Of a stretch of 64,000 bases of DNA, positions 1 through 64,000 are shown one piece after another. Position 1 is the stretch's first letter; each line of letters begins with the position of its first letter. The stretch is taken from contig JAFZOU010000037.1 of the NCBI GenBank assembly GCA_017550525.1, positions 62,001 through 126,000 of the forward strand, read 5' to 3'. A model generated the notes under the pieces. That model did not search any database, was not told the DNA's origin, and saw only the letters and a program-made list of their open reading frames with translations. The translations under genes were made by a program, and so were the position numbers. Source of the stretch: Bacteroidales bacterium. GTDB lineage: Bacteria; Bacteroidota; Bacteroidia; Bacteroidales; UBA932.

Positions 1-1921
1 AGAAGATGAGGATGGTGGTGGCCATCTTCTCCAGGTACTGCTTGCCCTTTTCCCAGGTGTGGCGCCAGGTGGCTTTCCAGGTGGGCATACGGTACGGCGG
101 CAGTTCCATCACAAACGGGAGGTCGTCGTCCTTGACGAATTTTCCTATGACAAGGGCCGATAATATGGCCAGAACTATTCCCAGAAGGTATATTCCAAGA
201 AGCGCCGTCGCGGGACTTCCGGGGAAGAACGCCCCCGCGAACAGGACGAAAATCGGTAATCGGCCCGCGCAGGACATAAACGGAATTATGGCCATCGTGA
301 CAAGGCGGGACTTCCGGCTCTCGATGGAGCGGGTGGCCATAATTGCCGGCACGTTGCAGCCAAAGCCCATAACCATGGGGATGAAACTCTTTCCGTGAAG
401 GCCGATCCTGTGCATCAGTTTATCCACGATGAACGCCGCGCGGGCCATATAGCCGCTGTCCTCCATTATGGAAATGAAAAAGTACAGGATCATGATGTTG
501 GGAAGGAACACAAGGACGCTCCCCACACCCGCGATGCATCCGTCAACCACAAGGTCCTTCAGCCAGCCATCGGCCATAAGTGAGCCGACGGCGTTTCCAA
601 GCCAGCCCACCCCTGCCTCTATCCAGTCCATAGGATACTGGCCGATAGTGAACGTTGCCCAGAAAACAAACCACAGCAGCACCAGGAAAATGGGGAAAGC
701 CGCCCACTGGTTGGTGACAATTGCGTCTATCCTGTCCGTGATGGTGCGGCGAGGCCTTTCTTCCTGATATTTCTGATAGGTCTCGGCAAGGGCGCCCTGG
801 ATGAAGGCGTACTTTGCATCCACAATGGCGCTTTCCATATTGGTACCCACGATGCCTTCCACGCGCTCCATTTCATCGGCCCTGGCGTCTGAGATATCTC
901 CTATGTTTGGCTTTCCGGACAGGAGGCGCTCAACCTCCTTGTCCCCTTCCAGATACTTTATTGTAAGGTATCTGGTGGAGTAGGTGGCCTTGAGTTCCTC
1001 ATTATATGCAATGTGCCTCTGGACCCTCTTTATGCTCTTTTCTATCTCCGCGCCGTGGTTGATGTGGATGTGGCGGGCAAGGCGGTCATCGGCCCCTTCA
1101 TATATCTTTATGACTGTGTCAAAGAGCTCCGGGATGCCGCGGCCGTCACGGGAAACCGTGGGGCAGACGGGCATACCAAGCAGGTAGCCCAGTTGCGTGG
1201 TGTCCAGTTTATCCCCCTTGTGCTCAAGTTCGTCGTACATATTGAGGGCCATCACAACCCTCAGGTTCATATCTATGAGCTGGGTTGTGAGGTAGAGGTT
1301 ACGCTCAATGTTTGAGGCGTCAACCACGTTCACAACAACGTCAGGGGTGGTTTCCAGCAGGTTTTTTCGGACATAAAGTTCCTCCGGAGAGTAGGCGCTG
1401 AGGGAGTAGGTGCCGGGCAGGTCCACCAAGGTTATTTCATAATCCCGAAACTTGAAATGGCCTTCCTTGGCGTCTACCGTCACACCTGAATAATTGCCTA
1501 CGTGCTCGTGGCTTCCGGAGGCAATGTTGAAGAGTGAAGTTTTTCCGCAGTTAGGATTGCCGACAAGCGCAACACGGATAGAGTGGTGACGTTCCTCGGC
1601 AACATGGGCCATGGCTTCTCCCAGGCGCCGGGGCTCTTCCATATCGGCCGGAAGTCCCTGAAGGTGCTCATCGCTTACCAGCGCCTCCCTGGCTTCCTCC
1701 TCCGTTACCACTTCTATAAGACGTGCTTCCTCTCTCCGGAGAGAGACTTTATAGCCGATTATTTCATATTCGATAGGGTCCTTGAGGGGGGCGTTGAGGA
1801 CAACCCTCACTTCCTTCCCCTTGATGAATCCCATCTCTATAAGACGTTTACGGAAACTGCCGTGACCGTGCACACGCACAATCACCGCCTTTTCCCCGGT
1901 CTTAAGGTCTGCAAGTATCAT
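1..1921 (-). CDS. feoB: Ferrous iron transporter, FeoA-FeoB fusion (C-terminus off the left edge)
   Basis: About 640 codons are visible, read leftwards from ATG 1921-1919; the 3' end lies outside the window. The first ~75 residues form a FeoA (SH3-like) domain. A cytosolic G domain follows with G1 GNPNCGKTS, G3 DLPG and G4 NMYD, then a helical linker and the first membrane segments (ILYFFISIMEDSGYMARAAF and the Gate motif region with GFGCNVPA). The family imports Fe(II) across the inner membrane using GTP hydrolysis; a FeoA-FeoB fusion is common in Bacteroidetes. A TAACTTTG -7 box lies 18 nt upstream of the start. All rightward open frames over this stretch are antisense shadows. The reading frame is unbroken within the window. 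Confidence 0.95.
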   Translation of the reverse strand, partial: MILADLKTGEKAVIVRVHGHGSFRKRLIEMGFIKGKEVRVVLNAPLKDPIEYEIIGYKVSLRREEARLIEVVTEEEAREALVSDEHLQGLPADMEEPRRLGEAMAHVAEERHHSIRVALVGNPNCGKTSLFNIASGSHEHVGNYSGVTVDAKEGHFKFRDYEITLVDLPGTYSLSAYSPEELYVRKNLLETTPDVVVNVVDASNIERNLYLTTQLIDMNLRVVMALNMYDELEHKGDKLDTTQLGYLLGMPVCPTVSRDGRGIPELFDTVIKIYEGADDRLARHIHINHGAEIEKSIKRVQRHIAYNEELKATYSTRYLTIKYLEGDKEVERLLSGKPNIGDISDARADEMERVEGIVGTNMESAIVDAKYAFIQGALAETYQKYQEERPRRTITDRIDAIVTNQWAAFPIFLVLLWFVFWATFTIGQYPMDWIEAGVGWLGNAVGSLMADGWLKDLVVDGCIAGVGSVLVFLPNIMILYFFISIMEDSGYMARAAFIVDKLMHRIGLHGKSFIPMVMGFGCNVPAIMATRSIESRKSRLVTMAIIPFMSCAGRLPIFVLFAGAFFPGSPATALLGIYLLGIVLAILSALVIGKFVKDDDLPFVMELPPYRMPTWKATWRHTWEKGKQYLEKMATTILIF

Positions 1922-1939
1922 ATAAAATAATTACCGCCG

Positions 1940-1947
1940 CAAAGTTA
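1940..1947 (-). promoter_or_regulatory. -7 promoter box of feoAB
   Basis: On the minus strand this reads TAACTTTG, matching the Bacteroidetes -7 consensus TAnnTTTG, 18 nt before the feoAB ATG. No clear Fur or DtxR-type palindrome was seen by eye. The remaining ~85 bases up to the neighbouring stop codon hold a short ATCCC/GGGAT inverted repeat near 1972-1988 and nothing else recognised. Confidence 0.6.
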
Positions 1948-2031
1948 GCGCTTTGCGACGGTATGGTCAATCCCAATAAATGGGGATAGGGAAAAGCCCC
2001 ACGGGAAAATCGTCGTAATCAAGAAAAGAGG

Positions 2032-2208
2032 TTAACGATGACCGCCTGCCTGATTATCTTCTATTGTCCGTAAAATTTTTCTTCCTATTTTACGTTCCAT
2101 TCCACTTCTGGTTGTGGGTATGCCTGTTTTATCTGCAATTTCTTTCTTAATTGCAGTAACGCCTATAGCTCTCTTAAGAGAGAATGATATTCCGGGTATT
2201 TTAGCCAT
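2032..2208 (-). CDS. Small basic protein, 58 aa, function unknown
   Basis: Start ATG 2208-2206 overlaps the stop of the upstream gene as TAATG, the same coupling used one gene earlier. The product begins MAKIPGISFSLKRAIG and is rich in Lys and Arg (about one residue in four), with no signal peptide or membrane segment. A central IADKTGIPTTR stretch is followed by a basic MERKIGRKILR segment. It resembles short conserved Bacteroidetes proteins I recall only by appearance, and I cannot assign a function. Conserved-looking composition, a clean stop and stop-start coupling argue that it is a real last gene of the 5893-2032 operon. Confidence 0.65.
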   Translation of the reverse strand: MAKIPGISFSLKRAIGVTAIKKEIADKTGIPTTRSGMERKIGRKILRTIEDNQAGGHR

Positions 2209-3086
2209 TAGTACGGAAGATTAATGATAAACAATTCGAATAGTATCTTCTCCAGTAACTGATAGAGAACATATAGCCAGCTAAGTATTAAAGCAGGAAT
2301 GATTATCCAAGCTAAAAATCCTGTTCCCAGCAAAGCCTCCACGATAAGCCGAATGAGGAAAAACAAGACTCCAAATACGACGAACAACAAGACCGCTAAA
2401 AGCAGCGAAAGTGTATCAAAAATGCTTAACTTAAAGAACCTCCCGTCCGTTGTGGAAACACTTGCCCTGTCAATATAGCCATTAATCGTCCTGCAGTTAT
2501 CGTCTGTCTTATAGCATTTCAGCCACGGAGAGTCTGCGGGGTAATTATTAATGATAACTTTATCTCCATTATTAAATGCATTGATTTGAGTGGAATTTCT
2601 ACTTGGAGATTTATATACCGGGATTGATTCTTCTTCTCCGGCGAGATGTGCTATCATCAAGTTCTCGCCCTTTATCTTGGCCCAATTGAAACCCAATGCT
2701 TTTCCTTCCGCAGTCTCTTTAATCTCCCACGTATCTTCAATTATATTATCATGAAGAACCCCTTGCGCCTCCATATAATTACGAAAATACGGGGTGGGGT
2801 TTACGCACTCCAATACTACTTTTACAGCTGGTTTACCCTTTATTTCAGAGTTCTCTTTTGATATTAATTTGAGAAAAGTATCAGGATTCTTGGTCATCAC
2901 TTCGGCATATAATTTCAGTTTCGGATGGTCTCCGGGGAAAATATACTGAGACGCACAAGAATATTCCCGCGCATTTAGCCTTGAAATGAATTTTTCTACC
3001 ATTCGGCCGTCATTTGGTCTTTCTCCGCAACCATATAATAGCATTATTGAGACTATTGTGGTTGCCCAAACAAGAACTCTTTTCAT
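2208..3086 (-). CDS. SH3-like lipoprotein with C-terminal membrane helices
   Basis: 292 aa. The N-terminus is a lipoprotein signal with lipobox LYGC (Cys ~20). Residues ~25-150 form an unrecognised alpha/beta region. Residues ~155-215 look like a bacterial SH3 domain (IPVYKSPSRNSTQ, then GDKVIINNY, WLKCY and GYIDRASV). After residue ~220 come two or three strongly hydrophobic helices, and the protein ends in NLPY. Having both a lipobox and C-terminal membrane helices is unusual. Start ATG 3086-3084 overlaps the upstream stop as TAATG, so translation is probably coupled to the MORN-like gene. AT-rich codon use differs from the flanking genes. Function unknown; a sensor or effector role is inference only. 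Confidence 0.75.
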   Translation of the reverse strand: MKRVLVWATTIVSIMLLYGCGERPNDGRMVEKFISRLNAREYSCASQYIFPGDHPKLKLYAEVMTKNPDTFLKLISKENSEIKGKPAVKVVLECVNPTPYFRNYMEAQGVLHDNIIEDTWEIKETAEGKALGFNWAKIKGENLMIAHLAGEEESIPVYKSPSRNSTQINAFNNGDKVIINNYPADSPWLKCYKTDDNCRTINGYIDRASVSTTDGRFFKLSIFDTLSLLLAVLLFVVFGVLFFLIRLIVEALLGTGFLAWIIIPALILSWLYVLYQLLEKILFELFIINLPY

Positions 3087-4855
3087 TACTTAAATCCGTT
3101 TGTTATTTGTTTATATTGAGCCAATGGCTCATACTTGTCAAAAAATATATCCTTTAAAGAAACGGCTGATGTGCCATTCTTATTTAACAGCGTGCCATGA
3201 TTATAATTGTAGATGGTCTCTTTTTTGGTTTTGCGATCTTTTAATACCCAAGGGCCGTCTGCCCATCCATAAGAGTCAAATTGTCCTTTTATCTCAAAAC
3301 CACGACTCCCTTCTTTGATTGTTATTGTAATATTCCCAACAAGATTATTGCTACGGTATTCGCCATTAATGGTATATTTCATCTCTTCTACAGAGAACTT
3401 ATATAGGAATAATCCATTTAGAACACCTTCATTATACTGTTCTGTTAAATCTGCTCGAATTGTCCCCTGGCCATCCTTGTGCATTAACTTCCATTCTCCT
3501 ATTCTATCACCATTATAGTGTTGACCCGTTACGGAAACTTGATCTTTACCCACAGCCGACAGATAGATATACGTTCTAAAGTTATATGCTCCATGAAGTA
3601 TTTTATCTCCGTCATCCAGATAATATGTATACTTTCCTGTCCCCTCTTCGGCTTCTAATGGATGCCCCGAGTAATAATAGCCATATGGCCCCTCAAGGAT
3701 TCTTCCGCTGAATGTTTTTGTTTTGACGTTATTGGCATTCATTATTTGAGCCTCTTCTATGAATTCAGAAGGCGTATATAGAAGAGATAATGCCTCTTTA
3801 TCATAGTTGGAAAGCTTTAATGGTGATATCCAATCTCCAACCTTTGCTGTACCATCTTGTAGATATATTGTCCCATTAACGGGAATATTGCAAAACCAGG
3901 GCCCTCCGGCATTTCCGACAAATGAATCTCCATTCTCGTAGTTAATTGTCCCATTCTTGAGATTTATCAACAGTTGACTTCCTCTTAAAGAACATGAAAA
4001 GTTTCCAACAAAATGACGTCCTTGAGTCATTTCCGCTTTACCGTATATAGAAGAGGCGTTCTCAAGAAGCGCATCAAAAACATCAGCGCCATTTTTGGTT
4101 ATCACTGAAGAGCCGCAAGAGTATTGGACAGACTTTACCTTATCATTGCCATCCAAAAAAATATTTACTCTCACACTATCCGAGAGGAATGGTTCAAAGT
4201 GAATAGCCTCTATATTTTTTGCCGGAAGGCAGGAGATGCTACCCGAAAGCAAAACAGGGAATTCGTATCCTTCAGATAAAGATGCTTTCCCCTTAAATAA
4301 TTGGCCGTTAGCATAAGCGACCTGAATAGTATCACTTTTTATGAGTAGTGAGTCTACTGCATAGTACCCATATTTTCTAATTAATTCCGCAGAAATGTCA
4401 GATTCAAGAGATTCCACATTTGATTCTGTTGAGGAGAGGTCAAAGACAAGATGCGCATCGTTTCCGGAACAAGTTAATTCAATCTGATTCGAATTCCTTG
4501 AGAGAGAGTAAGAAGAAACTGTTAATGGTTCCCACTCCAGAGGGCGGTTTGATTTCAAAGCCAAACGTCCTTTAGTGTTGTTCCAAATGCTGAATGTACC
4601 ATTTATTATTTCACGTTCATTACGATACTCTCCATTTATGATGGTGCGCCCGCCTTCGTAGAATAGAATTCCTGTGAGGTAAGAACCATCATTCCAGGAA
4701 ACTGTTGTCCTATGATTTGCCAGAAAACTCTTTTTGACAAGTGTCCCCTCAATCTGGTATCCGGCCTTGAACTGCACTTTTTTTATTCCTAACTCTTGAG
4801 CACAAACAGGAATCATTAACAGAAATAATACCCCTAATAAGAACGTCCTTTTCAT
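3086..4855 (-). CDS. Secreted MORN-like repeat protein
   Basis: 589 aa with a Sec signal peptide (cleavage near PVCAQ). The body is built from repeats of the type (I/L)NG-(E/T)Y/F-x-NG-x3-G-x-W/F, for example IINGEYRNEREIINGTF near residue 70, NGTINYENGDSFVGNAG near 305 and NGDRIGEWKLMHKDGQG near 445. This resembles MORN or YwqK-type repeats, which form beta-hairpin solenoids. No catalytic motif is visible. It lies 12 bp downstream of the Mrr-like gene and is TAATG-coupled to the SH3 lipoprotein. Codon use is AT-rich and the genome's frequent GGCCGAT heptamer is absent, suggesting acquisition by transfer. MORN-like proteins are known in membrane-linked and conflict systems, but the role here is inference. 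Confidence 0.75.
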   Translation of the reverse strand: MKRTFLLGVLFLLMIPVCAQELGIKKVQFKAGYQIEGTLVKKSFLANHRTTVSWNDGSYLTGILFYEGGRTIINGEYRNEREIINGTFSIWNNTKGRLALKSNRPLEWEPLTVSSYSLSRNSNQIELTCSGNDAHLVFDLSSTESNVESLESDISAELIRKYGYYAVDSLLIKSDTIQVAYANGQLFKGKASLSEGYEFPVLLSGSISCLPAKNIEAIHFEPFLSDSVRVNIFLDGNDKVKSVQYSCGSSVITKNGADVFDALLENASSIYGKAEMTQGRHFVGNFSCSLRGSQLLINLKNGTINYENGDSFVGNAGGPWFCNIPVNGTIYLQDGTAKVGDWISPLKLSNYDKEALSLLYTPSEFIEEAQIMNANNVKTKTFSGRILEGPYGYYYSGHPLEAEEGTGKYTYYLDDGDKILHGAYNFRTYIYLSAVGKDQVSVTGQHYNGDRIGEWKLMHKDGQGTIRADLTEQYNEGVLNGLFLYKFSVEEMKYTINGEYRSNNLVGNITITIKEGSRGFEIKGQFDSYGWADGPWVLKDRKTKKETIYNYNHGTLLNKNGTSAVSLKDIFFDKYEPLAQYKQITNGFK

Positions 4856-4867
4856 TATAATACTCCT

Positions 4868-5893
4868 TTATAATTGCAACCCATCCAGTCCGTTTTCAAG
4901 AATCATTTTTGCGAACTTCTTACCATCGATGAGTTTTACACCTGAGGCCTGCGCCAGTTGCTCTGCATCTTCGGAGAATGATTCCCCGGATGTAATAACC
5001 CACATAATGGTGGTATAGTCGTCATAATTGTGATTTTTTTTGTAGGCGTTGATCTGATCTATAGCCCAAGAACCGGTCTGGCCATCGTGCTTTTTCACCT
5101 GCACCATAATTGCAACGCCCAGTTTGTCAAAGATTGCAACTCTGTCGGCATCTCCGGCCTCAGTGGGGCTCTCGTTCTTGGATGGCTTTACTACATCTCC
5201 GCCAAGTGATTCCAGATACCATTGTACCAGGTCCTCGAACTTGCTGTCGTTCTGTAGATTCCGAATCTTCTCAAGAATAATTCCTATGGTCTCTTCTTCA
5301 ATGGAGGCTTTTAGATTGATGGGGCGTTTCCTGCGGAAGTTCTCCACAGCAGTATTAATAGATCCAAGCAGGTCGTTGATATTGGCATTGGTCTGCCGTA
5401 TCTTCATCCTTGAATACAGGGCTTGGTCCGCGTAGTCTCCCCTTGGAATGTTGAGTTCCAGCGGCTCTACTCTTCTGAAGAATCCTAGGTCCACAATATT
5501 ATCTTCCTTATCCCGAAGATAACCATCTTTGGAAAGACGGATTATGTTGCCATTCCAATCCGTAAGAAGGTCTGGAGCAATGGTCTCTACGGTAAAGACT
5601 TTGTCATCGGCGATTCTGTAAATTGAAAAGGCCTGAGGCCTTGGGACAAGCACTATGTCGCCAGGCTTCATATCTACTATAAAGCGCCAAAGGTTCCATC
5701 GGTTTCTGGGAAGTCCCCATCCGGAGTCAACAAATAATTTGTCAAAGGAGCTGCCACTCTCCCGTAATTTTGCAAGATTCTCCTCAGAGGAAAAATCTGA
5801 CCACCCAATTGATATATATCCTTTCTCAAGTAATTCCCAAGATAAAGGCAGGGCATAATCTCCTCCTGTGATTCGGTGTAGCCAAGTATTCAT
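4868..5893 (-). CDS. Mrr-type restriction endonuclease with EVE/PUA-like N-terminus
   Basis: 341 aa, no signal peptide. Residues ~1-125 look like an EVE/PUA-like reader domain: IGWSDF, then NLWRF, MKPGDIVLVP and FSIYRIADD match the usual W...N...F...M.GD.V.V spacing. Residues ~205-335 match the Mrr catalytic domain (PD-(D/E)xK fold): FEDLVQWYLESLGG, then GDADRVAIF and the QVKKH catalytic strand, ending with a VKLIDGKKFAKM helix. Mrr enzymes cleave modified or foreign DNA. A reader plus Mrr nuclease is a known type IV restriction layout. It is the first gene of the coupled AT-rich cassette, with its own TATCTTTG box 26 nt upstream. No methyltransferase is nearby, as expected for type IV. Confidence 0.8.
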   Translation of the reverse strand: MNTWLHRITGGDYALPLSWELLEKGYISIGWSDFSSEENLAKLRESGSSFDKLFVDSGWGLPRNRWNLWRFIVDMKPGDIVLVPRPQAFSIYRIADDKVFTVETIAPDLLTDWNGNIIRLSKDGYLRDKEDNIVDLGFFRRVEPLELNIPRGDYADQALYSRMKIRQTNANINDLLGSINTAVENFRRKRPINLKASIEEETIGIILEKIRNLQNDSKFEDLVQWYLESLGGDVVKPSKNESPTEAGDADRVAIFDKLGVAIMVQVKKHDGQTGSWAIDQINAYKKNHNYDDYTTIMWVITSGESFSEDAEQLAQASGVKLIDGKKFAKMILENGLDGLQL

Positions 5894-5919
5894 ATGAGCG
5901 TTATTAAATATGACTACAA

Positions 5920-5927
5920 CAAAGATA
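5920..5927 (-). promoter_or_regulatory. -7 promoter box of the Mrr/MORN cassette
   Basis: The minus strand reads TATCTTTG, 26 nt before the Mrr-like start codon. It is the only strong promoter seen for the four-gene cassette, so 5893-2032 is probably one transcript. Confidence 0.6.
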
Positions 5928-6003
5928 ATGGGCCGTGATTATATTCCTAGGTCCAAAAAAGGTCCATATTTGATATGAACCTTAAAGCGGGGTGTGGGGA
6001 GAA

Positions 6004-7230
6004 TTAGAAATTCAGGCCGATGCTGATGGTGCCGGACGGGGCACGAAAGGCGGTGAGGGAGGCGCCGGCGCCCACGGTAATACGGCCGGGAGACCAAAGG
6101 ATGCCCGCATCGAGAAGAAGTCCATTGGCAGAAAGGTCGGAGACCCTTGCCCAGCTGCCGCTGCTGTCTTCCCAGAGAATATTCTGCTGTCCGTATCCCA
6201 GGCCGGCGTAGGCGCTGAAATGCTTGTGGAAGGCATAAACAGGTCCTGCTGCCAGTGAAAGTCTGTGACTGCGGCTGTTTCCGGAAGCCCAGAATCGGCC
6301 AAAATCACAGGTGCCGTCCTGGCGGCATTCATAGGCATACCCGTTGGAGGAGAAGTTGCTTCTGGCGCTGATGTATGCGCCGATTTTCCCGTACCCCACA
6401 GTGAGCATAACGCCAAATGAAGGCGCCGCCCAGAAATCGGCCTGTAACAACAATGCCCCGTTCCACGATGGCTTTTGAGCCGCGGCTGTTTCTGCCGGAG
6501 CCTCCCTTCTTGGTATTACGCCTGGACTTGACGCAAACCTGACGGTGTTTTTTTGGGGGATGGCGGTCCAATTTGCGGCTTCAATCACCCGGGTTGTGTC
6601 GCGGGTGATGGTGGTTGGGGCTTCCACCGGTTTCAGAGGTTCTTTTACCGCAGGCTTTTGTGCCTTCAGAGCCTTCTGGATTAGGCCGATCTCACTTTCA
6701 ATGTTCCTAAGGTGTACTGCGTCTGTTCGCCCAACACCTACTTGCGCCTTGATTTCTGTCACCTGCCTCCTGAGCGCAGGATCTGCCGGAGGGAGGGAGG
6801 CCAGGTAAGTATCGGCCCAATAGAGATAGGTCCTTGATGCGTCAGGGTTCTGGGTGGCCGATTTCTGAGCCCACTGCACCAGCTCCCGGACTTTTCTCCA
6901 CCTGTTGCCGAAAACCTTGTCAATGTCTCTCCAGGCAATATATCTCAGGACACCGTTGGGGGTGGTAAGGGTCTGTGTGCTGCTACGGACATCTGTGCGA
7001 TATGTCTTCCACAAGGGTCCCTTCAACCAGTCTGCTACCGGAAGGATGTCGGAGGCTGAAAGCTTTGCCAGAAGGTTGTCAATGGCCTTGTTGTCGGCCA
7101 GGGAAGGCCGGACATCCTTTCCTTCCGCCCACAGGTAATCGGCGCTGGAGCAGATGCTCTCCACCGTCTGGGCACCGGCACCGATGCTAAATGACAACAG
7201 CAGGATGATAAGGAGGAATCGGCCTTTCAT
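6004..7230 (-). CDS. Outer-membrane beta-barrel protein with periplasmic N-domain
   Basis: 408 aa. Signal peptide with cleavage near AGAQ. Residues ~25-170 form an alpha-helical periplasmic region rich in W and R. Residues ~175-240 are a proline/alanine linker. From ~250 the protein alternates short amphipathic strands (GALLLQADFW, SFGVMLTVGYG, HRLSLAAGPVYAF, ITVGAGASL) and ends in IGLNF, the terminal Phe typical of outer-membrane barrels. Start ATG overlaps the stop of the upstream lipoprotein gene (ATGA, 7230-7227), so the two are coupled. The sequence carries seven copies of the genome's ATCGGCC/GGCCGAT heptamer, so it looks native. Ligand unknown. Confidence 0.75.
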   Translation of the reverse strand: MKGRFLLIILLLSFSIGAGAQTVESICSSADYLWAEGKDVRPSLADNKAIDNLLAKLSASDILPVADWLKGPLWKTYRTDVRSSTQTLTTPNGVLRYIAWRDIDKVFGNRWRKVRELVQWAQKSATQNPDASRTYLYWADTYLASLPPADPALRRQVTEIKAQVGVGRTDAVHLRNIESEIGLIQKALKAQKPAVKEPLKPVEAPTTITRDTTRVIEAANWTAIPQKNTVRFASSPGVIPRREAPAETAAAQKPSWNGALLLQADFWAAPSFGVMLTVGYGKIGAYISARSNFSSNGYAYECRQDGTCDFGRFWASGNSRSHRLSLAAGPVYAFHKHFSAYAGLGYGQQNILWEDSSGSWARVSDLSANGLLLDAGILWSPGRITVGAGASLTAFRAPSGTISIGLNF

Positions 7231-10611: not shown

Positions 10612-10727
10612 ATATCGGCCTGCCTGGTAACTCCCTCTTCCTGAATCTTTTACGCAAAGTCGGGTGCACCGTGCGGTGCACCCGACTATTATCAAGTGGC
10701 TGAGTAACAGCCTGTTACGTACCAGGG
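10612..10727 (-). repeat. Intergenic hairpin element, copy A
   Basis: About 116 bp directly downstream of the phosphopantetheinyl transferase stop. Read on the minus strand it aligns nearly end to end, at roughly 80 percent identity by eye, with copy B at 13212-13328 (plus strand). Shared landmarks in order: CCCTGG-ACGTAA, GGCTGT-ACTC, ACTTGA, the 13-bp GTGCACC hairpin, GATTCAG, GAGGGAGTTACC, and GGCCGATATT at the far end. The outer ends are themselves complementary (CCTGG..GTAAC against GTTACCAGG). Both copies sit in the same sense just after a gene's stop codon. Confidence 0.8.
10658..10687 (-). terminator. Hairpin in copy A, probable terminator of the PPTase gene
   Basis: A 13-bp perfect stem AGTCGGGTGCACC/GGTGCACCCGACT with a 4-nt loop. 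On the minus strand only TTTG follows, so termination strength is uncertain. The second pair from the base is G-C here and A-T in copy B, a compensatory change. Confidence 0.6.
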
Positions 10728-13211: not shown

Positions 13212-13328
13212 CCCTGGCACGTAAACGGCTGTAACTCGGCAACTTGACAACAATCGGGTGCACCATGAGGTGCACCCGATTTTGTGTAAGTGATTCAGAG
13301 AGAGGGAGTTACCGGGCGGGCCGATATT
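13212..13328 (+). repeat. Intergenic hairpin element, copy B
   Basis: Homologous to copy A (10612-10727) but in inverted orientation, 2.5 kb away. It starts one base after the stop of the small membrane protein gene and reaches into the nrdG stop codon. It contains the CCCTGG end, the central hairpin, GATTCAGAGAGAGGGAGTTACC and the terminal GGCCGATATTA. Confidence 0.8.
13252..13281 (+). terminator. Hairpin in copy B, probable terminator
   Basis: 13-bp stem AATCGGGTGCACC/GGTGCACCCGATT, loop ATGA, followed by a short T run (TTTTG when counted with the stem end). Suitable to end the mdh transcript. Confidence 0.65.
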
Positions 13329-53803: not shown

Positions 53804-53840
53804 AATATTTGGGTTGTTTTAAACTCATCTTTTATAGCGG

Positions 53841-53888
53841 TGTGTGCGCACACACCACAAATGTAGAAATTATTTTTCTTTCTACAAA
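53841..53888 (-). promoter_or_regulatory. susC promoter with LacI-type operator 3
   Basis: Minus strand: TTTG (53888-53885), a 19-bp spacer and TACATTTG (53865-53858), a near-ideal Bacteroidetes promoter. The perfect palindrome TGTGTGCGCACACA (53841-53854) starts 3 bp downstream, over the transcription start. Confidence 0.8.
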
Positions 53889-53907
53889 GAGTTTTGGGTT
53901 TTTTTGT

Positions 53908-53927
53908 TATCTTTGTGTGCGCACACA
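53908..53927 (+). promoter_or_regulatory. GH3 gene promoter with LacI-type operator 4
   Basis: TATCTTTG (53908-53915) overlapped by the perfect palindrome TGTGTGCGCACACA (53914-53927). Leader to the GH3 ATG is about 70 nt. No good -33 box was seen at the usual spacing. Confidence 0.75.
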
Positions 53928-53991
53928 CTGACGTTTTTTGTTCACTTTGTGAAACGCTGCGAAACCTTAGATACCTTATATTTTAATATAT

Positions 53992-56199
53992 ATGAAGAAA
54001 TTTCTGAACCTCTGCATTATCATTGCACTCGCCTACGCCTGCTGTGGCAAGGGAAACAGCCTTGAAGAAAAAGTTGAGAACACACTCTCACAACTTACGC
54101 TTGAAGAGAAAGTGGCGCTCACACATGCCCAGTCCAAGTTCAGCAGCGGCGGTGTCCCCCGCCTTGGCATTCCAGAACTCTGGCATACAGACGGGCCTCA
54201 CGGAATCAGGCCTGAAGTCCTTTGGGACGAGTGGGTCCAGGCAAAATGGACCAATGACTCCTGCACGGCATTTCCCTGCCTTGAGAATCTGGCCGCAACC
54301 TGGGACAGGGAACTCAGCGCCCTTTACGGCAAGAGCATTGGAGAAGAAGCACGCTATAGGAAAAAGGATGTCCTGCTGGGCCCGGGAGTTAATATAGGAC
54401 GAACCCCGCTAAATGGTCGGACCTTTGAATATATGGGAGAGGATCCGTTCCTGGCTTCTGAAATGGTTGTACCATATATTAAAGGTGTACAAAGCAATGG
54501 CGTTGCTGCCTGCGTCAAGCACTTCGCCGTTAATAACCAGGAAGTGAGGCGCACCGGCACCAGTTCAAATGTAGACGACCGCACAATGTACGAGATTTAT
54601 CTCCCGGCCTTCAAGGCTGCAGTACAGGAAGGCGGTGCCTGGGCCATCATGGGGTCATACAACCTGTGGAACAACCAGTTCAACTGCCACAATGAGCGCC
54701 TCCTCAAGGACATTCTCAAGGGAGAATGGGGATTTGACGGTATTGTAGTCAGCGACTGGGGAGGATGCAGGGATGATGACGAAGCCGCCGCCAACGGCCT
54801 GGACATAGAGATGGGAACATGGGTAGACCCTGATTTGGAGGTTGAAGGAGCATCAAACCTCTATAACCTGTACCATCTGGCCAACCCCTATCTTGAAAGG
54901 CTGCGTGACGGACGTGCAAGCATGGAAGACCTGGACGACAAGGCTCGCCGCGTACTCAGGACAATCTACCGCACATCAATGAGCGAGGAAAAGCATTTTG
55001 GCAGTTTTACATCTCCCGAGCATTTTGCTGCCGGACGCAAGATTGCGGCCGATGGAATAGTGCTCCTTAAAAATGACGGCGCCCTCCCCCTCAACATTCC
55101 TCAAGGCGGACGCATCCTGCTTGTGGGAGAAAACGCATACAAGATGATGACAGTTGGCGGAGGCAGTTCCAGCCTCAAGACCAAGCACGAGATAATACCC
55201 CTGGATGCCCTCCGCGAGGCTTTTGCAGGGAAGGCCGATGTAATTTGGGAAAGAGGCTACGTAGGTGACACCACCACGGATTACAACCTGGTTGTCACGG
55301 GACAGGACCTCTCCGAAAGCCGTTCCCCGGAGCAGCTTCTTGCCGATGCACTAGCTGCAGCAAAGGATGCGGACCAGGTTATTTTCATAGGAGGACTCAA
55401 CAAGAGCAAGAATCAGGATAAAGAAGGAACCGACCGTCTGGACATTGTCCTCCCCTACGGTCAGGACGCACTCATCGAAGCCCTTGCCGAGGTCTGCCCG
55501 AACCTTGTCGTGGTAAACATCTCAGGCTCCCCCGTAGCAATGCCCTGGGCATCAAAGGTAAATGCCATAGTACAGTCCTGGTACGGCGGATCTGAAAGCG
55601 GACACGCCCTTGCCGATGTCCTCACCGGCGCCGTTAACCCCTCCGGAAAACTGCCCTTCACCATGCCGTTTGCCCTTGCCGACGGTCCTCTCAAGACTCA
55701 GCGTCAGTATCCCGGAATCAAGGAGGAGGGAAAACAGTGGTGGCAGGAGTACTACGACGAAGGAGTTTTTGTGGGTTACCGCTGGTACTCCTCAAAGGGT
55801 ATTCCCGTACAGTATCCATTTGGCTATGGCCTGAGCTACACCACCTTTGAGCTTAGCGGCGCCAAGCTGTCAGCTTCTTCTATTAAGGCCGGGAAGGAGG
55901 TTTCTGCCACCATAATGGTAAAGAACACCGGTTCTGTTGCCGGCGCAGAAGTAATCCAGCTTTATGTAAACGATGAAGATGCATCCGTAGAGCGCCCGGC
56001 ACGTGAATTGAAGGGATTTCAGAAGGTATTTCTGGAACCTGGTGCATCGGCCAAAATCTCTTTCAAGATTAAGCCGGAGCACCTTAGTTTCTTTGATGCC
56101 GATGCCCATTCCTGGAAGCTTGAGCCCGGAGATTTCCACATTCTCATCGGCACATCTTCCGAGAACCTGCCATTTGATTTACCGCTGAAAGTAAGTTAA
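53992..56199 (+). CDS. GH3 beta-glycosidase lipoprotein (BglX-like)
   Basis: 735 aa. Signal with Cys ~17-18 (AYACC). GH3 N-domain: GIPELWHTDGPHGIR, LGPGVNIGRTPLNGRTFEY, VKHFAVNNQE and the nucleophile Asp in IVVSDWGG. The second alpha/beta domain has GVLLLKNDGALPL-type residues (GIVLLKNDGALPLN) and YGGSESGHALADVL, and a C-terminal FN3-like domain (VSATIMVKNTGSVAG). The family removes beta-linked glucose or xylose from oligosaccharide ends in the periplasm. First gene of a two-gene unit with the GH2 enzyme, under operator 4. Confidence 0.93.
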   Translation: MKKFLNLCIIIALAYACCGKGNSLEEKVENTLSQLTLEEKVALTHAQSKFSSGGVPRLGIPELWHTDGPHGIRPEVLWDEWVQAKWTNDSCTAFPCLENLAATWDRELSALYGKSIGEEARYRKKDVLLGPGVNIGRTPLNGRTFEYMGEDPFLASEMVVPYIKGVQSNGVAACVKHFAVNNQEVRRTGTSSNVDDRTMYEIYLPAFKAAVQEGGAWAIMGSYNLWNNQFNCHNERLLKDILKGEWGFDGIVVSDWGGCRDDDEAAANGLDIEMGTWVDPDLEVEGASNLYNLYHLANPYLERLRDGRASMEDLDDKARRVLRTIYRTSMSEEKHFGSFTSPEHFAAGRKIAADGIVLLKNDGALPLNIPQGGRILLVGENAYKMMTVGGGSSSLKTKHEIIPLDALREAFAGKADVIWERGYVGDTTTDYNLVVTGQDLSESRSPEQLLADALAAAKDADQVIFIGGLNKSKNQDKEGTDRLDIVLPYGQDALIEALAEVCPNLVVVNISGSPVAMPWASKVNAIVQSWYGGSESGHALADVLTGAVNPSGKLPFTMPFALADGPLKTQRQYPGIKEEGKQWWQEYYDEGVFVGYRWYSSKGIPVQYPFGYGLSYTTFELSGAKLSASSIKAGKEVSATIMVKNTGSVAGAEVIQLYVNDEDASVERPARELKGFQKVFLEPGASAKISFKIKPEHLSFFDADAHSWKLEPGDFHILIGTSSENLPFDLPLKVS

Positions 56200-58518: not shown

Positions 58519-59352
58519 ATGATTACCCATCCCAATGTCAAAATCAATCTGGGGCTGAACGTGCTCAGGAAGCGCCCGGACGGCTACCATGACCTTGAGA
58601 CTCTGTTTGTCCCTTACTTCGGGCTCACGGACACCCTTGAAATCATTACCGGAGATGACTACAGCCGCACAATAGCGGGGCTGCAGGCTAAATACGGGGA
58701 ACTTGCCCAGGCCATTTCCCCGGACGGGAAGCTCATGATAACCATCGCACGGAAGGATGGCGTGGACTGGGATCCCCTCAAGGACCTTACCGCAAAGGCA
58801 TATATGATGCTCTCCGATGATCACAAGCTTCCGCCCATGAAGATTTTTCTGGAGAAGACCAACCCCGTTGGGGCCGGACTTGGAGGGGGATCGGCCGATG
58901 CCGCCTTTGCCCTGAGGATGATATCGGAACTGGCGGAACTGGGCCTTTCGGATGAGGCCCTTGCAGGTTATGCCGCACGTCTTGGCAGCGACTGCGCGTT
59001 CTTCATCTATAACAAGCCCATGATGGGATCCGGCCGCGGGGAAATCCTGGAGCCGTTCCCGCTGGACCTTGGAGACCTCCGCCTGGAAGTGGTGATTCCG
59101 GAGGGAATATCTGTTTCCACGGCCGATGCCTACCGCGGAATTGTCCCCCGCATCCCGGCAAAGCCGCTGGCGGAAGTCCTGCGTCAGGACCCCTCCACCT
59201 GGAAGGAGGAACTGAGGAACGATTTTGAGGAAACGGTGTTTGCAAAATACCCCAAACTTGCAGCGATCAAGGCGGAACTCTATGAAAAAGGGGCGTTGTA
59301 TTGCGCGATGAGCGGCAGCGGTTCGTCCCTATATACGCTTTTTCGTCCCTAA
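58519..59352 (+). CDS. ispE: 4-diphosphocytidyl-2-C-methyl-D-erythritol kinase
   Basis: 277 aa. GHMP kinase: the catalytic Lys in HPNVKINLGLNVLRKRPDGYHD, the ATP loop NPVGAGLGGGSADAAF, the Asp in LGSDCAFF and the C-terminal MSGSGSSLYTLF motif. It phosphorylates CDP-ME in the MEP pathway for isoprenoids, so the organism uses the non-mevalonate route. Co-transcribed with tsaE. Confidence 0.95.
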   Translation: MITHPNVKINLGLNVLRKRPDGYHDLETLFVPYFGLTDTLEIITGDDYSRTIAGLQAKYGELAQAISPDGKLMITIARKDGVDWDPLKDLTAKAYMMLSDDHKLPPMKIFLEKTNPVGAGLGGGSADAAFALRMISELAELGLSDEALAGYAARLGSDCAFFIYNKPMMGSGRGEILEPFPLDLGDLRLEVVIPEGISVSTADAYRGIVPRIPAKPLAEVLRQDPSTWKEELRNDFEETVFAKYPKLAAIKAELYEKGALYCAMSGSGSSLYTLFRP

Positions 59353-59436: not shown

Positions 59437-60648
59437 ATGAGGAGAATCGTCTTGTTACTGGCGGCTGCGGCCGCCCTTCTATCCTGTAAAAAACCTCTTA
59501 TGGATTCCCTGCCCCGGTGGTATCGGCCGGGGTTACGGGCGCATGCCGCGGGGTCCGCCGGCGCGCAGGATTCATCGGCCTGGAATTCCCCGGCGGGAAA
59601 GGGTGTTTATGTTGCCGCCCTCCGTTTCCCGGAGTGGGCTTCCTGGCAGGACGGGGATTTCCGCGGCGCGGAGGCCGTGCTTTTCCGCGACAGCGTAGAG
59701 ATTGCCCACTGCGCCATGGGGGCACGCCCGGACCCTGACCGTATCCGTATAATTGACGGCCATCTGTGGACGGATGTGGCCGGAGAGGGGCAGACGCAGG
59801 TGTTCTGTGACGGGAAGCATCGGCTTACAATCCCCGACGAGGAACTTCTTAAGGGTTTTCTCATAGAAAATGACACTATATGCACCCTGGGGCAGCGTCC
59901 CGGGGGCGGCGGCCTTTGTTACAGGGTGAACGGAGAGGAGGTGTTCTCGGCAAGTGCGGGGACTGTTTTCGGCCAGTTTGAAAGGGACTCCAGCGGCACC
60001 CATTTCGCGTACGGCATCCCTATCCGCAAGGGAGATGCCGTCACCACGGAATACCATATAATGAATGGGGCCGATGAAATTAGCACCATCACACCAAACA
60101 AGGGCGGAGTCATTTACGATATCCGCGTGCGGGACGGGACGGTGTACCGGAGCGAGCGCCGCGGGGAGAGTCCGTCCAGCCTTTGCCTTGTGATTGGAGA
60201 GAGCTATCACTCCATGGACGTGGGGACGGCAGAGGAGATCCACCAGTGCAAACTGGTTGACTGCGGCGGGGAAATAATGATTAAGGGCTACTCCATAATG
60301 GGGAGCCTGATACGGCACTGGATACGCTCCAGGGACGGACTCCGGTATCAGGTGATAAGTTCAATGGGAGTTCCGGACATATATCTGGATTCCGGCAAAC
60401 TGGCCCATCTTATCACCAATCGGGACGGCAGGGTGACAAAGGTGGTCAAAGGGGACGAGACAATATCGGCCCTGGAAGACAGCCTTTACCTCAAGATTCG
60501 CAGCTCCTCCTGTGCCGATTTCCGGAACGACTCCTTTGCCGCCGCCCTTTCCGACACCTCCGGCCGGAAGCACCGGCTGTTTCTGGACGGACGCCTTGTC
60601 CCGCTTGAATTCAACGGTTATTTCACCTCCTTAAAGATTATTCAGTAA
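59437..60648 (+). CDS. Uncharacterised lipoprotein
   Basis: 403 aa. Lipobox LLSC (Cys ~17). The mature region is beta-rich with repeated motifs of 40-50 residues (RIIDGHLWTDVAGEG, IENDTICTLGQRPGGGGLCYRVNGEEVF, IYDIRVRDGTVYRS, PDIYLDSGKLAHLITNRDG). This hints at a beta-propeller, but no known family was recognised. Its stop overlaps the comM start as TAATG (60646-60650), so translation is coupled. GC-rich codon use with several GGCCGAT heptamers suggests a native gene. Function unknown. Confidence 0.6.
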   Translation: MRRIVLLLAAAAALLSCKKPLMDSLPRWYRPGLRAHAAGSAGAQDSSAWNSPAGKGVYVAALRFPEWASWQDGDFRGAEAVLFRDSVEIAHCAMGARPDPDRIRIIDGHLWTDVAGEGQTQVFCDGKHRLTIPDEELLKGFLIENDTICTLGQRPGGGGLCYRVNGEEVFSASAGTVFGQFERDSSGTHFAYGIPIRKGDAVTTEYHIMNGADEISTITPNKGGVIYDIRVRDGTVYRSERRGESPSSLCLVIGESYHSMDVGTAEEIHQCKLVDCGGEIMIKGYSIMGSLIRHWIRSRDGLRYQVISSMGVPDIYLDSGKLAHLITNRDGRVTKVVKGDETISALEDSLYLKIRSSSCADFRNDSFAAALSDTSGRKHRLFLDGRLVPLEFNGYFTSLKIIQ

Positions 60649-62204
60649 TGCTTGTAAATATTTATTCCGCAAAGATTATCGGCATAAAGGCCGTGCCCGT
60701 CAACGTTGAGATCAATATCACCCTGGGGGTTGGCCTTCATCTTGTGGGACTGGCCGATGCCGCCGTGAAGGAGAGCCTCCTGCGCACCGTGACGGCCCTC
60801 CAGGCTCTTGGCTACCATGTGCCTGGCAAGAAAATTGTCATAAATCTGGCTCCTGCCGATATGCACAAGCAGGGCAGCGGCTACGACATCCCCATTGCGC
60901 TGGGGATTGTTGCGGCGTCGGGGCAGAGAGAGATGCCCCTGCTGGATAAATACCTGATTATGGGAGAGTTGGGCCTTGACGGGAGCGTGCGGTATGTGAG
61001 CGGTTCCCTTCCCATGGTGGAACTTGCCATGGAGATGGGGTTCCGGGGATGCATCCTGCCGGAGGCGGCTGCACTTGAGGCGGTGGATTACACAGGAACG
61101 GAGATTTACGGAGTGAAGACGCTGGAGGATGTTCTGAGGATACTGGAGGGCGGTCTGGCACAGGACCTTCTCATTTGGAATACGGAAGCATACCGGGAGG
61201 CGCGGGAGATGGCGCTTAATCCGGTGAAGCGGTATATGGATTTTGCTGAGATAATTGGCCAGGATGCGGCCCGGAGAGGCGTTGAAGTGGCTGCCGCTGG
61301 TCAGCACAACGTACTTCTTGTTGGTGCCCCTGGCAGTGGAAAAACCTCTCTGGCCAAGGCTCTGGCGGGCATTCTGCCGCCAATGACACTGGAGGAAAGC
61401 GCCGTCACGTCAAAGATTTACTCCGTGGCCGGGACTTCCTCCGGGGGCTTCGGGCTTCTGAGGTCAAGGCCGTTCAGGGCTCCGCATATATCGGCCTCAA
61501 AGGCGGCGCTCCTTGGCGGCGGAAGCGGAGACAACATCCTTCCCGGGGAAGTTTCACTTGCCACTGGGGGAATTCTCTTCCTGGACGAATTTTGCGAGGC
61601 GCCAAAATCAATCCTGGAGGCGCTTAGGGGGCCGATGGAGGACCGCAAGGTGTGCATTTCCCGCCTCAAGGCAAAGATTGAGTACCCGGCGTCGTTTATG
61701 CTTGTGGCGGCTTCCAATCCCTGCCCCTGCGGCTATTACGGGGAGGGAGACCGCTGCACCTGCACGCCAAGCGTAAGGAACGCCTACCTGGCTAAACTGA
61801 GTGGCCCCATTATGGATAGAATAGACATACAACTTTGGATGCATCCGGTTGAGACCCAGGCACTTATAGCCGGAAAGAAAGCAGAGCCGTCGGCCGCTGT
61901 GGCAGAAAGGGTTGTGCGGGCCCGGGAAATCCAGATGAGGCGCTTCCAGGGGCTGGGAATCTACGCCAATGCAGAGATGAGCGGGGCGCAGCTGGAGGAG
62001 TTCTGCCCTTTATCGGCCCAATGTAAGGACCTTCTGGAGAAAATCATTGACCGCCAGGGGCTCAGCGCCCGCGCTTACACCCGTATCATCAAGATTGCCC
62101 GCACAATTGCAGACCTCGCCGGCGTTCAGGACATCCTCCCGCAGCACCTAGCCGAAGCCGCCAGTTACCGTTTCCTTGACCGGCGGCATATAATGGGATT
62201 GTGA
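60648..62204 (+). CDS. comM: YifB/ComM-family Mg-chelatase-like AAA+ ATPase
   Basis: 518 aa. An N-terminal Lon-like substrate domain (VEINITLGVGLHLVGLADAAVKES) is followed by an AAA+ module with Walker A LVGAPGSGKTSLAKAL, Walker B ILFLDEF and the Cys cluster NPCPCGYYGEGDRCTC, and a C-terminal helical domain (LSARAYTRIIKIARTIADL). In Vibrio and Haemophilus, ComM is a helicase for branch migration in natural transformation; it is widespread also in non-competent species. Coupled to the preceding lipoprotein gene. Confidence 0.93.
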   Translation: MLVNIYSAKIIGIKAVPVNVEINITLGVGLHLVGLADAAVKESLLRTVTALQALGYHVPGKKIVINLAPADMHKQGSGYDIPIALGIVAASGQREMPLLDKYLIMGELGLDGSVRYVSGSLPMVELAMEMGFRGCILPEAAALEAVDYTGTEIYGVKTLEDVLRILEGGLAQDLLIWNTEAYREAREMALNPVKRYMDFAEIIGQDAARRGVEVAAAGQHNVLLVGAPGSGKTSLAKALAGILPPMTLEESAVTSKIYSVAGTSSGGFGLLRSRPFRAPHISASKAALLGGGSGDNILPGEVSLATGGILFLDEFCEAPKSILEALRGPMEDRKVCISRLKAKIEYPASFMLVAASNPCPCGYYGEGDRCTCTPSVRNAYLAKLSGPIMDRIDIQLWMHPVETQALIAGKKAEPSAAVAERVVRAREIQMRRFQGLGIYANAEMSGAQLEEFCPLSAQCKDLLEKIIDRQGLSARAYTRIIKIARTIADLAGVQDILPQHLAEAASYRFLDRRHIMGL

Positions 62205-62432: not shown

Positions 62433-62436
62433 TAAT

Positions 62437-62847
62437 ATGCGTAAAGTAACAGCTGTAATTGAAACTGGTCTGGATCGTCGTATAGAGATATACGTCGGCG
62501 ACGATACGTACCCCTATGGAATACTGGGAGAAGGTCATACCATTGCCGAAGCAAAAGAAGATTTCATGATTGGCTACCAGGAAATGAAAGAGTACGTTCT
62601 AGACTCCGGAAAAGAATTTGAGGAAGCAGAATTTGTCTTCCGCTATGATATTCCGTCCTTCCTTCAGGAATTCGCTTATGCCTTTACCCTCTCCGGCCTT
62701 GAGAGAATTACCGGAATCAATCAGAAGCAACTGGGTCACTATGTGAGCGGGTACAGGAAACCATCGGCAAAAACTATTCGGAAAATGGAAGAAGGTATCC
62801 ATAATTTCAGCGAACAGTTAAGCCGAATCCATTTCTACGGACTCTGA
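62437..62847 (+). CDS. hicB: HicB-family antitoxin with HTH
   Basis: 136 aa. The N-terminal RNase H-like HicB fold has GEGHTIAEAKEDFMIGYQEM. The C-terminal helix-turn-helix is GLERITGINQKQLGHYVSG, with YRKPSAKTIRKMEEGI, like an Xre/Cro unit. It binds and inhibits HicA and should repress the hicAB promoter. Its stop is 1 bp from the stop of the converging CotH-like gene. Confidence 0.87.
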   Translation: MRKVTAVIETGLDRRIEIYVGDDTYPYGILGEGHTIAEAKEDFMIGYQEMKEYVLDSGKEFEEAEFVFRYDIPSFLQEFAYAFTLSGLERITGINQKQLGHYVSGYRKPSAKTIRKMEEGIHNFSEQLSRIHFYGL

Positions 62848-62848
62848 C

Positions 62849-64000
62849 CTATAAATTGCCCAGCACAAACTGGAGGTGGATGTTGTAGTTCTTCTTGATG
62901 CGGGCAACGGCTTCGTGGAAGGTCATACGTTCATCTCCGTTGATAATCTGGCCGCCGTTCATTGAGGCATCTTCGGCGGGATTCCACATCTTGAAATTGA
63001 GTTTTGCGCTCTCTGAAAGGAGGGCCTCGCACTCATCTATGTAATCCGGAATGGTCTGGAGCTGAGGGAGAAGTTCCCTGATGCGGTCCCTGGTCTTTTG
63101 AAGGAAAGCCGGATCCTGGAACAGGCGGTCGTACCAGATGGCGTGGCGGTTTATGAGGCGCCTGTCGCCACCAGTAGTGTCAAAGGTAAGCACTCCCCAG
63201 TCAAAGTCCCAGCAGGGACCGGCGGTGAGTTTTCCGTCCTTGTCCTTGTGCATGAAGACGCTTCCGGGGTTACCAAGCTCATGGTTTGTCATCACCTCAA
63301 AGACTATCCAGTAATCTATGAAGGAATCCACATCCAGATACTTTGCATAGCCGTTTACGGGGTCTATGAAATTGGATCCATAAATGACATTGGAGACCTC
63401 TGCAATGTAGTTTTTGATGTAGGTCTTTTTCTCCTGGGTGAGTTCCGTGGGCTCATCCGGATCCGGATGCTTCACGGCAAACGGGATGTTGTGGTCCTTC
63501 CACTGGAAGGTGTTGTCATTATGGAAGTCAAGTTCCAGGAGGTAGCCGTCCTTCTTGTCTATGTTCACGCGGTCTCCGTCCACCCTCACCTGCTCAATGA
63601 GAAGGTAGTTTCCAACATGTTTGCCGTTGAGGACAAGCTCCACGGTCTGGCTTCTGGGAGTCCAGGCAAGACGCGTCATGGAAGACACCTTCATGGCCAC
63701 CATGTTTCGCATCATGGTGCGGTCCATGAAGTTTGCAAGAAGCACCCAGCGCTTGTGCTCCGGGAATCCAAAAACGGATGCCTTTTCCTCCAGTTTCACA
63801 AGATACGGCTTCTTGGGCCACTCCCATGTGGTGTTTCCACGGCCGCGGATGCTGCAGGCAACCTCCGGGAAATAGTCCTGCGGGGCGTCTTCACTCACTA
63901 TTGAGAATTTGGCCGATACATACTGTTCCTTTGAGGTAATTGCCGCGCCGCCCTGAGTGTCCACAAACACCACCGGAAGGCCGGTGTGGACCATACCGGC
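62849..64000 (-). CDS. CotH-kinase-family protein (N-terminus off the right edge)
   Basis: At least 383 codons; the frame is open to the window end (GCC GGT before the first ATG at 63994), and there is no signal peptide at that ATG, so the true start lies outside. CotH motifs: SIRGRGNTTWEWPKKPYLVKL, KRWVLLANFMDRTMMRN, LVLNGKHVGNYLLIEQV and the metal-binding WDFDWG near the end. CotH-like proteins are secreted atypical protein kinases (first known in spore coats) and are frequent in Bacteroidetes, often with surface-protein domains. Substrate unknown. Confidence 0.88.
   Translation of the reverse strand, partial: AGMVHTGLPVVFVDTQGGAAITSKEQYVSAKFSIVSEDAPQDYFPEVACSIRGRGNTTWEWPKKPYLVKLEEKASVFGFPEHKRWVLLANFMDRTMMRNMVAMKVSSMTRLAWTPRSQTVELVLNGKHVGNYLLIEQVRVDGDRVNIDKKDGYLLELDFHNDNTFQWKDHNIPFAVKHPDPDEPTELTQEKKTYIKNYIAEVSNVIYGSNFIDPVNGYAKYLDVDSFIDYWIVFEVMTNHELGNPGSVFMHKDKDGKLTAGPCWDFDWGVLTFDTTGGDRRLINRHAIWYDRLFQDPAFLQKTRDRIRELLPQLQTIPDYIDECEALLSESAKLNFKMWNPAEDASMNGGQIINGDERMTFHEAVARIKKNYNIHLQFVLGNL

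Follow-up and report, generated by a model that had tools for sequence, protein, structure and literature searches.

The 64,000-nucleotide stretch of Bacteroidales DNA analyzed here (the window) and the genome from which it comes are densely populated by the heptamer ATCGGCC (GGCCGAT on the opposite strand). This word marks a single clade, most of the other surveyed relatives being without it. Between two sister species, roughly one-third of the copies that are otherwise intact show the same substitution at one base of the word, a substitution seldom seen at other sites. We consider it about an even chance that ATCGGCC is a DNA uptake sequence (DUS) with dialects, operating independently of type IV pili.

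Abundance and form of the word

The window lies in contig 47 of the metagenome-assembled genome (MAG) G000, which comprises 2,380,099 bases in 136 contigs and is 91% complete. ATCGGCC/GGCCGAT is the commonest 7-mer of the window: the roughly 80 copies claimed by the initial annotation proved to be 82 (42 ATCGGCC and 40 GGCCGAT), against 10.1 expected from trinucleotides, and the heptamer is present at all 15 positions listed there. The whole genome carries 3,596 copies (1,800 plus 1,796), i.e., 1,511 per million bases or about one per 660 bases, whereas the reversed word used as a control occurs 227 times (108 plus 119). The palindrome ATCGGCCGAT, composed of two overlapping copies in opposite orientation, is found 75 times in G000 and its reversed form only once; 150 of the 3,596 copies are paired in this way, and the heptamer itself is not a palindrome. 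More detailed counts were made in a 463-kb sample consisting of the window and 20 other G000 stretches, which leans slightly upward (1.59 copies per kb versus 1.51 in the whole genome) because all of its stretches were chosen on contigs holding ATCGGCCGAT. In this sample, 737 copies were seen against 68.7 expected from an order-2 Markov model. The Markov comparison, proposed in the initial annotation as a possible refutation, did not refute the over-representation of ATCGGCC, which is confirmed as real.

The second refutation proposed there, an explanation by codon and dipeptide use, was examined in genes called as simple codon-scored open reading frames (with pooled training required for G372). 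The coding part of the sample contains 672 copies, compared with 92 (standard deviation [SD], 7.6) after synonymous reshuffling within genes and 141 (SD, 11.5; maximum, 168 in 100 runs) under a stricter null that also keeps the codon-junction dinucleotides. Both synonymous nulls fall far short of the observed count and refute codon and dipeptide use as the full explanation. The reported use of different codon frames is borne out as well, all six frame/strand combinations occurring in genes, each above expectation. Of the 163 sites at which the protein permits the word in the best-filled frame (ATC GGC C), 119 carry it (73%, versus 21% after reshuffling), and the frame with the most copies has 293 of its 554 permitted sites filled. 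Non-coding DNA of the sample contains 63 copies versus 7.3 expected, and the three window copies that had been described as non-coding indeed lie outside called genes (Table 1).

The genome form of the word is (C/T/A)ATCGGC(C, less often A), with a core of 7 bases. Among its one-letter neighbors, only ATCGGCA is strongly raised in the sample (281 versus 49.5). The preceding base is C or T in 75% of the copies and G in 5%; apart from it, the information content is at most 0.11 bit at every position up to 15 bases before and after the word. With so little information in its flanks, ATCGGCC is a point-like word and not a piece of a longer repeat, which rules out an interspersed repeat. Over 23 G000 stretches of about 20 kb, the two strands carry 377 and 353 copies, the scatter among stretches being no more than chance (chi-square, 10.7 with 23 degrees of freedom; P = 0.99), with a weak rank correlation between the residual strand bias and GC skew (0.44; P = 0.03). 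This balance upholds the earlier argument against a polar signal like Chi or the FtsK-orienting polar sequences (KOPS) and rules out Chi- or KOPS-type polarity. An evenly spaced signal was also rejected, the gaps being near random (mean, 605 bases; coefficient of variation, 1.13). Between genes, the word density per kb is 2.0 in convergent, 1.1 in tandem, and 0.4 in divergent intergenic regions; within genes, there are slightly fewer copies at the gene ends in both orientations, and the difference between orientations is not notable.

Distribution in one clade and dialects

Relatives of the NrdD protein from named genomes come from Bacteroidales MAGs, many of them of rumen or forestomach origin, the nearest being RGIG7900 from water buffalo (99% identity). 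Genome G225, from the same genus as the window, and G373 show identical profile matches at identical places, and since G373 holds L059, which is “Candidatus Cryptobacteroides excrementipullorum,” the host is placed in “Candidatus Cryptobacteroides” (rumen, Bacteroidales). In the NrdD tree, 24 of the 81 rows come from loci carrying 8 or more copies per 10 kb, a cut-off that was chosen after the densities were seen and under which L041 falls with 7.8; all 24 are in one supported group of 30. The high-word state requires 6 changes on this tree, in which a few loci are only 3 to 9 kb long, against a mean of 20.9 for shuffled states, with none of the 500 shuffles being as low.

We surveyed all 7-mers under a strict reshuffling null in samples drawn from 35 genomes. 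ATCGGCC ranks first in G000 (727 seen/102 expected), G357 (137/20), G356 (88/13), G019 (236/47), G361 (100/21), and G028 (72/22), as well as, at about threefold, in G327 and G330; its count in G333 is 22/7.2. Nothing comparable was seen in eight word-poor members of the genus or in five of the seven genomes from other Bacteroidales families, and the word was rejected as a general Bacteroidales feature, since most of the 35 genomes do not show it. Raw counts overstate the word in some relatives: G324 and G349 (G+C content, 60 to 62%) contain more than 1,600 raw copies each, but ATCGGCC is outside their top five 7-mers under the same null.

Some related patterns were recorded in other genomes. 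In G053 and G059, which belong to other families of the order, ATCGGC-type words are raised two- to threefold, including ATCGGCA at about threefold; in G053, the palindrome TCGGCCGA is found 22 times versus 5.7 expected and ATCGGCA 49 times versus 16.6, which may be a remote version of the same phenomenon. Conversely, ATCGGCC is nearly absent in the 11 genomes of genus g45 (0 to 10 copies a strand, compared with 9 to 89 for the reversed word) and also in some g44 genomes, G085, G125, and G161, an avoidance that perhaps comes about through restriction of sites within the word.

Conservation of the word was assessed as the share of G000 copies kept in a relative versus the share of composition-matched control words. 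Among word-bearing species, the copies are mostly better kept: 31 of 38 in L008 (control, 48%), 15 of 33 in L007 (29%), and 8 of 18 in G019 (23%). Word-poor relatives are mostly at or below the control, with 1 of 16 copies kept in L024 (22%), 1 of 11 in L029 (13%), and 2 of 17 in L036 (20%).

In the other genomes with a strong signal, variants of the word stand out. In G366 (UBA4230), the top word under the strict null is TTCGGCC (188 versus 39 expected), followed by ATCGGCC (111/24); genome-wide, TTCGGCC is found 3,128 times in G366 (control, 582) and 637 times in G000 (control, 527). Under the same null, CATCGGCA stands out in G350 (34/5.0), G144 (26/4.4), and G364 (21/2.2). In the NrdD tree, UBA4230 (L041) groups as sister to L008/G357, a species whose word is ATCGGCC. 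In a 40-kb alignment of G357 with G366 (83% identity), the 82 ATCGGCC sites of G357 correspond to ATCGGCC in 32 cases, TTCGGCC in 18, and GTCGGCC in 6; thus, among the 56 sites where TCGGCC is kept, 18 begin with T and 6 with G. At 6,892 other A-words in the same comparison, the first base is T in 2.1% and G in 6.7%. A first-base T in G366 is likewise seen at 15 of 42 sites compared with G000 and at 11 of 37 compared with G356, while pairs sharing a dialect retain A at 49 of 49, 25 of 26, and 16 of 16 sites (91, 88, and 85% for other A-words). ATCGGCC sites thus read TTCGGCC in place in a sister species, a pattern that we interpret as a dialect switch. Further dialect candidates, ATTCGCC in G367, ATTGCCC in G372, and ATTGGCA in G371, were set aside, since their enrichment (2.7- to 4.0-fold; z, 7.6 to 8.9) is little above the scan background (top z, about 5 to 8).

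Window features, word-poor stretches, and repeats

Features of the window are listed in Table 1. Several details given in the initial annotation hold: ATCGGCCGAT is present where claimed; feoAB, a single FeoA-FeoB fusion gene, carries the word five times in one orientation and three times in the other; and it was right to treat comM as widespread and put no weight on it.

Table 1. Positions of the word and of word-poor stretches in the 64,000-nucleotide window
Feature	Position	Strand	Remarks
ATCGGCC/GGCCGAT copies	1..64000	both strands	82 copies, 42/40
FeoA-FeoB fusion gene, reaches window edge	2..1921	-	Pfam FeoA, FeoB_N, FeoB_C; 8 word copies
Stretch without the word	1650..6014	.	Mrr_cat nuclease gene (4868-5893, -); two further proteins have no Pfam match
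Word copy outside called genes	10614..10620	+	
Word copy outside called genes	13319..13325	-	
Word copy outside called genes	20982..20988	-	
Word-poor island	35471..55046	.	7 copies versus 33 expected; SusC/SusD, GH39, beta-helix, fn3, and PKD proteins
ATCGGCCGAT, two overlapping opposite copies	58890..58899	.	letters at claimed position
ComM/YifB-family AAA ATPase	60648..62204	+	4 word copies; family widespread, not diagnostic

The word-poor island, whose G+C content is like that of the rest of the window, is probably a recently acquired polysaccharide-use locus. An 8.4-kb stretch without the word elsewhere in the genome (L104:1045-9453, G000:C69) encodes a 213-amino-acid (aa) MmeI-like methylase-like protein, a T5orf172 protein, and an M13 peptidase; MmeI-like matches in frames of similar size are also found in G019 and G144. 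DUS gaps have reportedly been used in Neisseriaceae to find acquired elements (PMC7371117), and the island and the word-free stretches with their nuclease, methylase-like, and glycan-use genes fit that published use.

Two repeat families were encountered. An intergenic element of G000 (L090:3296-3332, L090:5737-5773, L092:5364-5400, and L092:7188-7224) has the ends GGCCGATT...AATCGGCC around an inner GCC/GGC hairpin, further outer inverted repeats, and, after two of its copies, a T run; it is possible that these are terminators or a small mobile element. In the window, ACCTGCGAC and its complement form an inverted repeat (positions 20957 to 21001) around the word copy at 20982; ACCTGCGAC is found 15 times in L008 and represents the second family.

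Candidate readers of the word, rival explanations, and known systems

Being short, non-palindromic, strand-neutral, clade-bound, present at more than one copy per kb, and changed in place, ATCGGCC resembles the reported uptake sequences (PMC3630211). In an uptake system, the competence machinery would include a DNA receptor, at the surface or in the periplasm, with a preference for word-bearing DNA, so that DNA of the same species would be preferentially taken up and recombined. Such biased import would let matching point changes pile up at tolerated sites throughout the genome, which could account for the observed density, and a change in receptor preference would in turn alter the word at the same sites and create dialects such as that of G366. 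The machinery would be of the Bacteroidota kind that does not depend on type IV pili and would comprise ComEC, DprA, RecA, and a ComEA-like protein anchored in the membrane and carrying two helix-hairpin-helix (HHH) domains; the respective genes are found in the clade, and we infer their role in word-directed uptake. Competence without type IV pili has been described in a member of the same order, Porphyromonas gingivalis, where ComEA and ComEC are reported to be essential and the outer-membrane step to be unknown (PMC11532111). In Riemerella anatipestifer, competence reportedly needs ComEC, DprA, ComF, RecA, and an HHH protein, and four essential genes are described as of unknown kind, one of them with an HHH domain (PMC8459023). 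For Riemerella columbina, a preference for its own DNA has been reported, and a k-mer count in that work yielded candidate words, including A-rich 10-mers, whose function was left open (PMC7965970); thus, a preference for own DNA is not new in this phylum.

Profile searches covered 40 genome handles, representing 39 distinct genomes, as G225 and G373 gave identical matches. Eleven of these (G000, G019, G028, G144, G350, G356, G357, G360, G361, G364, and G366) are referred to as word-bearing, meaning that they have a strong top word; G360 rests on one 15-kb locus, L016, and G327, G330, and G333 (about threefold) as well as G313 and G321 (outside the survey) are left out. ComEC was found in 38 of 39 handles, with no match in G360, and DprA in 39 of 40, with no match in G000. 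HHH_3 proteins were found in all 40, each handle having a match in a frame of 168 to 406 aa besides any longer ones. The ComEA-like protein of G000 (320 aa) has a hydrophobic stretch near its N terminus and two HHH matches, and its gene lies two genes from that for thymidine kinase, near recA. The search for competence genes suggested by the initial annotation has a mixed outcome: ComEC, DprA, and ComEA-like proteins are near-universal but no more diagnostic than comM, since genomes in which the word is scarce have them too, and no pilus ATPase passes the cut-off in the word-bearing genomes, as detailed next.

Several observations weigh against an uptake sequence. Word-poor relatives have the competence genes just as well, so that these do not explain the distribution of the word. 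In G000, comEC is split into two overlapping frames (L095:10404-11122, G000:C36) and DprA was not found in a profile search of this 91%-complete MAG, which may reflect MAG gaps and errors or real loss; the DprA match of G357 is in two pieces, and the ComEC-bearing open frames are short, 356 to 413 aa in most genomes. The type IV pilus ATPase (PF00437) is over the cut-off in none of the 11 word-bearing genomes, for which the type IV pilus was rejected as the apparatus; 38 of the 40 handles have some match at an E value of ≤0.001, nearly all under the cut-off. No receptor candidate emerged, a ComP-type receptor not having been sought. Close inverted pairs of the word, a DUS habit, show no clear excess: after removal of overlaps, there are 32 inverted versus 21 direct pairs, and four non-coding inverted pairs come from one repeat element. 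Genes with atypical codon use are only slightly word-poorer (Spearman correlation, 0.12; P = 0.03; 320 genes). TTCGGCC is 1.8- to 2.6-fold over the control in six ATCGGCC species (G356, G358, G360, G361, G365, and G370), so the dialects overlap and are not clean. Conservation is uneven, with 4 of 18 copies kept in L011 (control, 27%) and 5 of 25 in L050 (18%), and is above the control in L046 (4 of 10; 19%) and L039 (2 of 7; 17%), which lack a strong ATCGGCC signal. Finally, any sequence-specific process acting genome-wide would give the same statistics.

T2S/T4P-type PF00437 ATPases well over the cut-off were seen in 3 of the 40 handles, G101, G243, and G261, word-poor members of the same genus. 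The ComEA-like protein was considered as the dialect reader. It is 75% identical between G357 and G366, where two neighbors are 99% and 88% identical; DprA is equally variable and same-dialect pairs differ too, which allows no conclusion on the ComEA-like protein as the reader.

Among the rival explanations, an unlikely one that still deserves weight is a system resembling the highly iterated palindromes (HIPs) of cyanobacteria: the word, in whole or in its core, would be recognized by an orphan methyltransferase and built up, with no link to uptake, by selection or by mismatch repair tied to methylation. HIP words are reported at 1,000 to 2,000 per million bases, a range that includes the density in G000, and in some genomes other words take their place, the methyltransferases being replaced along with them (PMC4390886). 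The rarity of G before the word, as if GATCGGCC were disfavored, also points this way, as does an MmeI-like methylase match (PF20473) in 4 of the 11 word-bearing genomes, two of them over the cut-off. However, known HIPs are palindromic and ATCGGCC is not. C5 methylases (PF00145) are found in 5 of the 11 genomes, the lack of a match in 6 counting against a C5 partner as in HIP1, and N6/N4 methylases (PF01555) in 4, of which 3 are over the cut-off. None of the three families is over the cut-off in G019, G350, G360, and G361; adding G327, G330, and G333 brings the PF00145, PF01555, and PF20473 counts to 6, 5, and 4 of 14. Thus, no searched methyltransferase family covers more than 5 of the 11 word-bearing genomes, with PF02086, PF02384, and PF07669 not searched and MAG gaps that could hide genes.

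We regard as improbable a Chi-like hotspot of recombination or repair recognized by an AddAB/RecBCD-type enzyme of the clade. In its favor, Chi words are 5 to 8 bases long, enriched, features of the core genome, and different in sequence between lineages. Chi sites are, however, strand-biased, whereas the word is balanced over the 23 stretches, apart from the weak correlation with GC skew, and a tenfold enrichment exceeds what is typical of Chi. There is similarly little chance that the word is the binding site of an abundant protein of chromosome organization or segregation. A genome-wide, strand-neutral word spaced at one per 0.66 kb would suit such a protein, but no candidate protein is at hand, and proteins of this type are not known to us to combine sharp specificity for single bases with a switch of dialect between close sister species. 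A by-product of codon use, dipeptides, or context-dependent mutation with no recognizer is very improbable: ATCGGC does suit codons such as ATC GGC, and reshuffling still leaves 92 to 141 copies, but the coding excess extends over all six frame/strand combinations, non-coding DNA shows an excess as well, and the A-to-T excess at the first position in G366 is specific to the word.

Returning to DNA uptake, a fuller version of that reading, to which we give somewhat less than an even chance, would be a Bacteroidota uptake-sequence system without type IV pili in which fast dialect switching between sister species would act as a mating barrier among rumen bacteria and the outer-membrane DNA receptor of Bacteroidales competence would read the word. 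For two families of Proteobacteria, uptake directed by a word is firmly established. Should rumen Bacteroidales add a third, unrelated case, such uptake would be shown to evolve repeatedly and to do so without type IV pili; the case would also direct attention to the outer-membrane step still missing from Bacteroidales competence, and the word, added to donor DNA, would offer a genetic handle on bacteria that are difficult to engineer. The G357/G366 pair represents a natural experiment on the rewriting of a genome-wide word, and, whatever the cause, a strand-neutral, non-palindromic word with a first-base change to T in about one-third of the otherwise intact copies aligned between sister species calls for an explanation. 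In the open-licence PubMed Central literature, we found no paper on Cryptobacteroides and natural competence or on Bacteroidales and an uptake signal sequence (USS), and none of the open-licence titles listed concerned such a strong word in Bacteroidales. While a preference for own DNA is thus on record in the phylum, a strong word of this kind was not found in open-licence print.

Of the analogues named in the initial annotation, the DUS likeness stands better, as the word is non-palindromic, strand-balanced, confined to one clade, and has one-letter dialects. The HIP1 likeness is weaker because the word is not a palindrome and no searched methyltransferase family is common to the word-bearing genomes. 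Like the word described here, the Neisseriaceae DUS is non-palindromic, present in thousands of copies on both strands, in and between genes, and has dialects one to a few bases apart; it differs in having 10 to 12 bases instead of 7, and the host here belongs to Bacteroidota, has no pilus ATPase over the cut-off, and shows no clear excess of inverted terminator pairs. The 3,596 copies per 2.38 Mb in G000 fall within the range reported for known DUS dialects, e.g., 2,787 and 3,603 per genome for king3DUS and 3,269 and 2,245 for eikDUS (PMC3630211). The USS of Pasteurellaceae is also a short word over-represented across the genome, unrelated in sequence and host. HIP1 and the alternate HIPs of cyanobacteria have a similar density and variants that replace the word in relatives, but they are palindromes tied to methyltransferases. 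Chi shares with ATCGGCC the character of a short, lineage-specific genome word, from which ATCGGCC is set apart by its lack of strand polarity and its stronger enrichment.

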